64,000 nucleotides of DNA from contig NC_026656.2 of assembly GCF_000004075.3 (NCBI RefSeq), forward strand, positions 16,874,607-16,938,606. Reading direction: 5' to 3'. The position numbers and the translations under genes were made by a program. Origin of the DNA: Cucumis sativus (taxonomy: Eukaryota; Streptophyta; Magnoliopsida; Cucurbitales; Cucurbitaceae). The notes beneath the pieces are model-generated. The model was not told where the DNA came from and did not search any database. It was given only the letters and a program-made list of their open reading frames with translations. Below are positions 7,685 to 13,837 of the stretch, piece after piece (the stretch's first letter is position 1; every line of letters begins with the position of its first letter).

Positions 7685-8359
7685 ATGACTCTTCACTCCA
7701 TTTTGATTCAGAAGCTATTGTGCACCAACGCCCATGTTGGTCGTCGAGTTGCCACTCACCATTTCAAGCTATATACTTATGGGTTCCGCAATCGAATGGC
7801 CATCATTGACTCCGATAAAACCCTAATTTGCATGCGCCATGCCTTGAACTTCATTGGCTCATTGGTCCGCCTGAAAGGTCGTTTCATGTTCGTTAACACC
7901 AATTGGCTTTTCGATGAGATCATTGAAGAAATGACGAAGAAGATTGGGTGTTACAGGCCTAGCGACAATGCACTTTGGAAGATGAGTGGAATTCTCACTA
8001 ATAGTGGAAGTCCTAAGAAGTTCAGGTCGAGGCGTAAGAAGCTCTTTTTTGGACCAACTCAACCGCCCGACTGTTTGGTGGTTATTGATACGGAGAGAAA
8101 ATCGTCAGTGATTTTGGAGGCAGACAGATTGCAGATTCCGATTGTGGGTCTTGTTAACTCGAGCATGCCATTGGAGATCTATAAGAAGATTGCTTATCCT
8201 ATTCCGGCCAATGATTCTGTTCAATTTATCTATTTGTTCTGTAACTTGATAACGAAGACCTTCCTTTACGAACAGAAGCGACTGTCTTCTGCTAAAGCAG
8301 TTGCTGTCGAAGAGGAACTTCCCAAAGCTCAACCAAGGTACCATTTTCAGTTGTTTTAG
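7685..8359 (+). CDS. Stand-alone ribosomal protein S2 if intron 1 is retained
   Basis: Alternative product of the same locus. If the 79-bp first intron (8338-8416) is not removed, translation runs six residues past the splice donor (YHFQLF) and stops at 8359, giving a 224-residue protein. That is close to the normal length of plant nuclear-encoded mitochondrial S2 (about 220 residues). A separate downstream product could then begin at the ATG at 8445, inside exon 2. S2 binds the head/platform region of the mitochondrial small ribosomal subunit; this is family knowledge. Whether this isoform is made cannot be told from DNA. Confidence 0.4.
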   Translation: MTLHSILIQKLLCTNAHVGRRVATHHFKLYTYGFRNRMAIIDSDKTLICMRHALNFIGSLVRLKGRFMFVNTNWLFDEIIEEMTKKIGCYRPSDNALWKMSGILTNSGSPKKFRSRRKKLFFGPTQPPDCLVVIDTERKSSVILEADRLQIPIVGLVNSSMPLEIYKKIAYPIPANDSVQFIYLFCNLITKTFLYEQKRLSSAKAVAVEEELPKAQPRYHFQLF

Positions 8360-11300: not shown

Positions 11301-13837
11301 TTTCCTTACTGACTGGTGGAACTCTCGATGTACTATTATCAAAGGTTGGACTTTTATGCTTAATGTTAGCCAACTGACAATATATTATATTATGGGAGAT
11401 GGGTGAGAATACATACATATATTATATATAAACGTTTGGAAAGCTGGAGGAATAGGGAAGAAGACAAGAAAGAGATTCCAACATCAATCTAATATTTCCT
11501 TTTGACTCATTTTCCAGGGTAAGGAGTTTGCTCTCATTGTTGGCTCAGATAATGTGGCTGCTGTTATTGACCCACGTATCCTTTCTTGTGATCTGATCTT
11601 TTTTAATCATAATGCAATGCTTTTTTCTTTGAATTATGATTTTCTTGACTGAATGATTTAGAAATCTTAAATTATTTGATCCAAAATAAGACCGAAATCT
11701 GCATGGAGGTATGCAACAAAGTTGCTCTATACTTGCTTCCTGAGTTCAACTCTTATAGCTTTCATTCTTATAGGTAACACCTACAGTAGCATTGGAGTCT
11801 AGTAGCCTCTCTAATTCAACTCCAGAGAGGTGTCAGGTTGGTATTGTCATGAAACATTTCAATCTTTCACCGGTATCTGTTGGACTTCCATTCCTGTTTT
11901 GACTTTTTCGCTTTGTTATTGCACATTCTTGTATTTGTATACATATGAGAGATGGAGTACTGATGTGAGTTTGAAACTTGGGTATTAAATTGACTGAATT
12001 CTTTGTGATAGTTTATGGCTCACTACCTCTGGGTGGTGTTGTGGTCACCAGAATTTCTTTTGTAATTATTGTCGTACTAGGATCCTTTGCAACTAGAAGC
12101 GCTTCTTTTGGGCCCTTGCCCTTTGGCTGTTCATTTGTTAATTGTATTTTTATATAGTTTTTTCTTACCTATAAAAAGAAGAAAATAGTTGTGACATTGT
12201 TCTTGAACCTAACAATCTTACTTGAACAGGATTTGTTGTATAGGTTGTACAATTGTGTCCTTTGAGTCCTAAGGTTTAGTTCTTAAAACTAGTGTGTTTT
12301 CGGTTCTTGACAATGGGTTTGATGCACATTGTTTCTCAATGCAGCTTGCGGATATTGCTTTAGATTCAAGTCAGGTAAGAGATCGTCATTATATCTTCTT
12401 TTCAAATTTTTTGTTGAATTACTCATCCATTTTTTTCCTTTTAGATTTATGTTTTTGTGGTGCTGTTAGTTAGCTTGTTTGTGTAGTGGATAGTTCTCTA
12501 TCTAATTGTTTGAAGTTTCTCTTTATGTTAACCAACTCAAGCAAATGGACAAATACAAATTTTCTGATACAAGAAACTTGTGAGTACGAACTTCCTTTAT
12601 CTTTTTTTTCCTCCTAGCCATTGCATATGGACTTCATATCAGTTTTGTGTTATATCATTCAGGTGGCTGAATTTGACTGCCGTTAAGAGACTAGTCGATA
12701 CAAATACACTAAAAATCGGGAATTCATTTTCAGAGGTCAAAGGCATTTTACAAAGACACCTTTATATTTTTAATCCTTGTAGAAGATACTGATGAAGTTA
12801 CTTGTCACATTAGGTTGGAAGCAGCGATCAAATGCTGAGGCAAAATACTGCAGTACGCTCAATGATTAAGGTTTGTTTAAATTGTATACTTTATTCTGTC
12901 ATATAAGTGAATATTCTTTTCATGACATACTTTGAACTTTTTTGACAGTTGTTTGATCGAGCTGTTGGTGTTAATGTCCCACATTCTCGTTCACTACAAC
13001 TGAGTTCAACTTCAGATTTACTTCTTTTACAAGTAAGTGTGTAAATATGAGCTTACGGTGTAATACCGAATGAGACAAGAAAACCACATCTGGTGAAACT
13101 AATGTTTCTTTTACACTATTGCAGTCAGACCTATACTCATTTAATAAAGGCTTAGTAGTTCGAAATGCAGCTAGAGCTAGTCCTGTAAATCCATCAATTG
13201 ACTTAGGTCCTGAATTTGAAAAGGTAAAATTTGTAAATTCTGCTAGTACATGTATTTGTGATTAAATATTATTCTCCTCGTGCTTATTCCTTCTTTCCCA
13301 GATTTATGATTTCCAAAGTCGATTCAAGTCAATCCCCAGCATTGTTGAGCTGGATAGCTTGACAGTAAGAGGAGACGTATGGTTTGGATCGGGTGTCACT
13401 CTCAAGGTATTGTATGCATTCCATCTATATATGCTATATACATCGACGTGGCCTTTATTTTGTCATGCTCCCTCCTGCGGAGACGACTATATAAAATGGA
13501 CCTGTACATATAACCAGAATGGAATGTCTGTGTATGTATGATCTAAAGATTCAACCTATTCTACCATCCATTACCCTTCATCATAAAGAATAATTTCTCT
13601 TCTCTTGTTAACATTACTTAGCTTCATTATTTGTTTGGTTTTGAAGGGGAAAGTTAGTGTCGTCGCAAAACCTGGGGTGAAGTTGGAAATTCCAGATGGT
13701 GTAGTGATTGAGAATCAGGTAAGTAAAAGTATGAAAGTTCTCAATGTTCATCAACATTCATTGTTTCCAAGTTAAATGTGGAATGCCCTTTGGTTTTTAT
13801 CCAGGAGATCAACGATCCCGCGGATATTAAACAGTGA
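7685..13837 (+). CDS. Mitochondrial ribosomal protein S2 fused to a UGPase-like protein, 20 exons
   Basis: Exons: 7685-8337, 8417-8517, 8613-8703, 9708-9768, 9862-9939, 10020-10070, 10174-10226, 11272-11344, 11518-11575, 11662-11708, 11774-11836, 12345-12374, 12542-12579, 12663-12735, 12814-12870, 12949-13032, 13125-13223, 13302-13406, 13647-13718, 13805-13837. All borders are GT...AG and keep frame, giving about 639 residues. Residues 1-217 are a full plant mitochondrial S2 (small-subunit protein uS2m; [12 protein letters not shown] onward). From about 228 the chain follows UDP-glucose pyrophosphorylase: [26 protein letters not shown] (269-277), [25 protein letters not shown], with the parent's exon pattern. 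The enzyme's first 45 or so residues are missing. NGGLGT is NGALGT, the VTPK lysine is Thr426, and the LPVKATSD lysine is Ser528, so catalysis is doubtful. Two separate genes are possible but fit less well. Confidence 0.75.
8990..9246. mobile_element. Tourist-like (PIF/Harbinger) MITE in intron 3 of the S2-UGPase gene
   Basis: A 257-bp segment begins GGGGTGCTTGAAT and ends with the near-inverse CAAACACCCCC. It is flanked on both sides by TAA (8987-8989 and 9247-9249), the 3-bp target duplication typical of PIF/Harbinger MITEs. Inner parts also pair (TGTAATGTAATCC against GGATTACATTCCAG). It has no coding capacity. Confidence 0.65.

Follow-up and report, generated by a model that had tools for sequence, protein, structure and literature searches.

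A putative chimeric plant gene in which a mitochondrial-type ribosomal protein S2 exon is joined in frame to UGPase-like exons

Ribosomal protein genes that moved from mitochondria to the nucleus need a promoter and a route into the organelle. Perrotta et al. 2002 are said to have described an rps2 of the mitochondrial genome whose C-terminal extension is processed; that extension differs from the one discussed here in being encoded in mitochondria, and we know of no relation between it and UDP-glucose pyrophosphorylase (UGPase). In dicots rps2 seems to have been lost early from the mitochondrial genome (PMC3464924). The closest described nuclear system is sdh2 (sdhB)-rps14 of grasses in which an SDH2-RPS14 precursor is processed by what is thought to be a cut between the halves (PMC1543663). 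In that system a ribosomal protein gene transferred from mitochondria lies within a nuclear host gene and shares a transcript with it via splicing. The host precedes it and contributes the targeting peptide; host mRNA continues to be produced, and both products arise by alternative splicing (PMC1543663).

Here we describe a cucumber locus, known from sequence alone, that resembles sdh2-rps14 in that a transferred ribosomal protein gene appears to share the transcript of a nuclear host gene. However, S2 comes first, the host part would form a tail at the C-terminus, and the enzyme of the host gene is apparently dead. The host part does not supply N-terminal targeting as in the grass gene, since S2 lies first and the UGPase N-terminus was undetected in the window. 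The window, by which we mean the whole stretch of 64,000 nucleotides that was analysed, is A+T-rich (30.4% G+C) and reads as plant nuclear DNA, judging from its genes and introns. We consider it probable (about 0.68) that the locus is a nuclear chimera whose product is S2 extended at the C-terminus by a tail of UGPase origin, either kept or clipped. No published S2-UGPase fusion was found in the open-licence literature, and in one cucumber proteome the ribosomal matches were S20 and S21, not S2, with UGPase listed separately. The gene model may already be present in genome databases.

Gene model and splice signals

The sequence from 6500 to 15000 was read together with the open frames listed there, and the borders of 20 exons were set by homology and GT-AG. 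Joined in frame, the exons give 639 codons with no internal stop (7685-13837), and GT-AG is found at 19 of 19 introns. The features are as follows.

7443..7450, + strand: TATATAAA, 5' of S2, a possible TATA box (pattern only)
7685..8337, + strand: exon 1, uS2m, 217 codons plus 2 bases, without a stop (phmmer, tblastn, PF00318, TIGR01011)
8338..8416, + strand: intron 1, 79 nt, 76% A+T, between the S2 and UGPase-like parts (splice scores, length)
8417..8703, + strand: exons 2-3 (8417-8517, 8613-8703), with the junction peptide and the onset of UGPase homology (VPYE..., NGALGTTMG)
9708..11344, + strand: exons 4-8 (9708-9768, 9862-9939, 10020-10070, 10174-10226, 11272-11344), catalytic part, with DHGP for GHGD
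11518..12870, + strand: exons 9-15 (11518-11575, 11662-11708, 11774-11836, 12345-12374, 12542-12579, 12663-12735, 12814-12870), remaining catalytic part (N220G, K256S, G258S, E271D, N293D)
12949..13837, + strand: exons 16-20 (12949-13032, 13125-13223, 13302-13406, 13647-13718, 13805-13837), K360S followed by the better conserved C-terminal domain with RFKSIPSI intact; stop TGA at 13835-13837
14080..14085, + strand: AATAAA 3' of the stop, possible poly(A) signal (pattern only)

The original prediction was that S2 is spliced in frame onto a UGPase-like protein, and at the level of predicted splice sites the join is borne out: the donor GT lies at 8338-8339 and the acceptor AG at 8415-8416, with exon 2 running from 8417. 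Judged by sequence only, in-frame splice sites thus link the ribosomal protein exon to the host exons, and the joined protein has both Pfam domains (PF00318, E 5e-23; PF01704, E 6.2e-90). To score intron 1 we used a weight matrix built from the other 18 introns of the gene, which were themselves scored leave-one-out. The intron 1 donor (6.0) and acceptor (6.35) fell within the ranges of the others (donors 0.45 to 11.58, acceptors -2.64 to 11.46), and each was the best site of its neighborhood, the donor among the 7 GT of 8290-8399 and the acceptor among the 13 AG of 8360-8479. Neither signal is rare taken singly, because unused sites elsewhere in the window score as high (166 of 3058 GT and 124 of 3194 AG). 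In length and A+T content intron 1 is also ordinary, the remaining 18 introns having 65-1045 nt and 64-76% A+T. Splicing of intron 1 is supported by these sequence signals, short of proof. If the intron were kept, a stop codon (TAG, 8357-8359) would follow YHFQLF and the read-through open frame would encode S2 alone, with 224 residues.

The two halves are unlike in composition, third-position G+C being 50.7% in the S2 exon (7685-8337) versus 35.1% in the UGPase-like exons (8417-13837). We also considered whether an exon had been lost between exons 7 and 8 and rejected this: apart from a deletion, exon 7 aligns to the matching stretch of UGPase, and the next exon starts as expected.

The S2 and UGPase-like halves

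By phmmer, exon 1 matched Arabidopsis uS2m (6xyw_Ba) with E 1.5e-80 over query residues 1-202, from the same start Met, and cauliflower uS2m (9evs_A) with E 5.1e-79 over query residues 1-200; PMC12672651 gives 9evs as cauliflower. In a tblastn comparison S2 was 61% identical to Arabidopsis uS2m (AT3G03600) over residues 1-204 (E 5.9e-83), and the exon scored 77.2 bits against NCBIfam TIGR01011 (cut-off 76.3). Homology to the uS2m proteins of solved plant mitoribosomes is therefore near full-length. The exon had been called a complete mitochondrial-type S2; the type stands, and the extent is better graded as near-complete. The known chains have 219 (Arabidopsis) and 212 (cauliflower) residues, whereas the window S2 continues in frame into the UGPase exons. 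Pattern matches to S2 numbered 53 stretches in GTDB genomes and 10 in IMG/VR, none confirmed. For the UGPase part there were 66 in GTDB, where the query was limited to 100 residues from the C-terminal part, and 8 in IMG/VR, again none confirmed. A lack of relatives is expected because these collections are prokaryotic and viral.

The UGPase part matched the sugarcane (5weg_A, E 3.8e-125) and Arabidopsis (2icx_A, E 1.5e-120) enzymes up to the C-terminus in phmmer searches, and its match to Pfam UDPGP (PF01704) covers profile positions 24-413 of 413, which places it in the UGPase family. It shares with these plant enzymes a many-exon structure and the RFKSIPSI motif, but it has diverged strongly: 209 of the 397 columns aligned with Arabidopsis are identical (52.6%), compared with 353 of 416 (84.9%) between Arabidopsis and sugarcane. 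Homology starts at about Arabidopsis residue 54, and a tblastn search of the window revealed no counterpart of residues 1-53 (best E 0.95). The claimed absence of the first 45 or so UGPase residues is thus supported. By eye the first 22 residues of exon 2, which precede VPYE, were suggestive of a UGPase N-terminus, a candidate that we rejected because two shuffle tests were not significant: the score was reached by 48% (Arabidopsis) and 22% (sugarcane) of 2000 shuffles each and by 199 of 1000 (Arabidopsis) and 315 of 1000 (sugarcane) anchored shuffles. As the start of exon 2 lacks significant UGPase similarity, inheritance of its acceptor from UGPase is unproven.

The active site is heavily altered. 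Among the 11 UDP-glucose-holding residues of the Arabidopsis enzyme, as listed in PMC5832301, seven are replaced (L85F, G191D, N220G, K256S, G258S, E271D, N293D) and four kept (G87, K99, Q162, H192). K360, matched by position, without alignment, to the substrate-site lysines Lys361 of rice and Lys367 of potato (PMC2327258), is Ser. Conserved UDP-glucose contacts together with lysine 360 would mark an active enzyme, and the UGPase half has lost most of them. Given the loss of seven contacts and K360, the UGPase half is very probably catalytically dead.

Decay is uneven along this half. Columns equal in Arabidopsis and sugarcane were kept at only 6 of 28 positions in residues 154-193 and 7 of 39 in residues 254-293. 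Residues that do not vary among Arabidopsis, sugarcane and human are retained in the window at 87 of 166 sites within 54-352 versus 45 of 57 within 353-469 (Fisher p 0.0005), and for columns equal in the two plants the figures are 122 of 251 versus 74 of 102 (p 5e-5); the border at 352/353 was chosen after inspection of the alignment. Residues 381-469 keep 33 of 38 of the three-species invariants. Ordinary UGPases do not show better conservation of the C-terminal part, where Arabidopsis-human identity is 51.8% versus 60.4%. The C-terminal part of the window half has an intact RFKSIPSI motif, which PMC5832301 describes as essential for phosphorylation and 14-3-3 binding.

The open frame of the UGPase part does not look like that of a freely drifting sequence. 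Simulated neutral drift to 75, 60 and 55% identity gave on average 6.1, 9.7 and 10.3 stops (minimum 1, 3 and 4; 200 runs each), and none is observed. The mean BLOSUM62 score of the replacements was -0.1 (148 sites, residues 54-352) and 0.0 (40 sites, residues 353-469), compared with -0.48 to -0.59 in neutral runs. The lack of stops and the mildness of the replacements argue that the UGPase part was constrained for much of the time. Part of this constraint may be older than the loss of activity or the fusion, and the active-site decay fits also with a host half under weak selection.

Origin and product of the locus

The chimeric gene would have arisen when a mitochondrial rps2 coding sequence came to lie where a spare UGPase paralogue had its first exons, probably two in number. 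On gaining a splice donor at its 3' end, rps2 would have come to be expressed from a single pre-mRNA in which S2 is spliced to the former UGPase exons. The window has 19 UGPase-like exons, and PMC12115279 gives 21 exons for the UGP genes of poplar and most bamboo genes analysed, 20 for potato and 19 for Arabidopsis. Hence two exons would have been replaced by S2 if the ancestor had 21, a number that is uncertain and ancestor-dependent given the potato and Arabidopsis counts. A rice mutant that lost the intron 14 acceptor makes proteins of 299 (one base deleted) and 298 residues (intron kept), according to PMC2327258. As the position and the one-residue difference match, rice intron 14 can be mapped to window intron 13 (junction Leu297-Trp298, Arabidopsis numbering), an assignment that fits but remains indirect. 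The suggestion that S2 replaced the first exon(s) of UGPase thus gains indirect support from the intron match and the 21-exon genes, against which stand the counts of Arabidopsis and potato.

The predicted product is a 639-residue protein in which a UGPase pseudoenzyme of about 420 residues follows S2. The start shared with Arabidopsis uS2m suggests that the S2 part is imported without a cleavable presequence. It would then join the small subunit near the mRNA exit, with the tail either carried there or clipped off. In a tentative and rather doubtful extension, the pseudoenzyme of this lineage would be a domain now fixed at the C-terminus of mitoribosomal uS2 near the mRNA exit, where its own preserved C-terminal domain, with the 14-3-3 motif, would act in docking to the mitoribosome or in its regulation.

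Several other readings of the locus deserve consideration. The predicted S2 of 224 residues is close in length to the Arabidopsis protein of 219, so transcripts that keep intron 1 (with its TAG at 8357-8359) or end early could supply S2 to the ribosome, the fusion being a minor second product of the same locus. The grasses offer a precedent by analogy in sdh2-rps14, and an AATAAA lies in intron 2 at 8569. However, a single AATAAA means little when the + strand of the window has 140 copies, and the signals, A+T content and length of intron 1 are all ordinary; we regard this explanation as unlikely. The same read-through stop could instead mark the end of a separate S2 unit at 8359, with the UGPase-like exons being a gene of their own or a promoterless, decaying relic that starts, for example, at the in-frame ATG within exon 2 (8445). 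The active-site replacements would suit a relic, but the UGPase frame has no stops where neutral drift predicts six to ten, the introns downstream have GT-AG borders and matching phases, and merely 85 bases separate the S2 stop from the ATG. On the + strand TATAAA is absent between the copies at 7445 and 10126, a weak point as plant promoters can do without a TATA box. We think two adjacent units quite unlikely.

Two further readings have very little to recommend them. Homology across nearly the whole enzyme (phmmer E 3.8e-125) and retention of Q162, G87, H192 and K99 might suggest a working UGPase carried into mitochondria by S2, but the replacement of seven of the 11 contacts plus K360 makes this most improbable. 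We give equally little credence to the window copy being a nuclear by-product with the working S2 gene elsewhere in the genome, since the S2 exon is undamaged and shares 61% identity with residues 1-204 of the Arabidopsis protein.

If the chimeric gene works as proposed, a transferred gene seemingly took over the body of a now-inactivated metabolic enzyme gene, giving a ribosomal protein with a 420-residue tail. Were the tail to stay, the mitoribosome of a plant would have a new domain near the mRNA exit; were it clipped, the locus would provide an example of a tolerated large C-terminal passenger. In either case homology-based counts of UGPase genes would take in a probable non-enzyme.

Flanking signals and neighboring genes

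The + strand of the window has 14 copies of the possible TATA box, TATATAAA, including 3 within 7200-14300, and as a bare pattern it does not argue for a function; the AATAAA beyond the stop codon is likewise one of the 140 + strand copies. An upstream open frame of five codons, ATGATGGGAAGCTGGTGA, lies at 7585-7602 and ends 82 bases 5' of the S2 start in a different frame. No repeats of at least 30 bases were reported in 6500-14500 and no tRNA genes in the window. In Arabidopsis the locus tags of UGPase (AT3G03250) and uS2m (AT3G03600) are 35 steps of ten apart on chromosome 3, a proximity that could be coincidental or could reflect an ancient linkage of S2 with a UGPase gene.

Elsewhere in the window a SKP1-like protein is encoded at 16325-16813 on the - strand (Skp1_POZ, E 2e-31), and a - strand frame at 20255-20788 gave a weak and possibly chance match to a bacterial iron uptake porin model (24.4 bits versus a cut-off of 100). 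Open frames with an S4 domain (38448-38897) and an RNA pseudouridine synthase (39312-39938) lie within 38448-39938 (+), and a LYR-family protein is found at 44860-45384 (-). The - strand frame at 48213-49223 encodes a protein with two thioredoxin stretches, which resembles chloroplast CDSP32.
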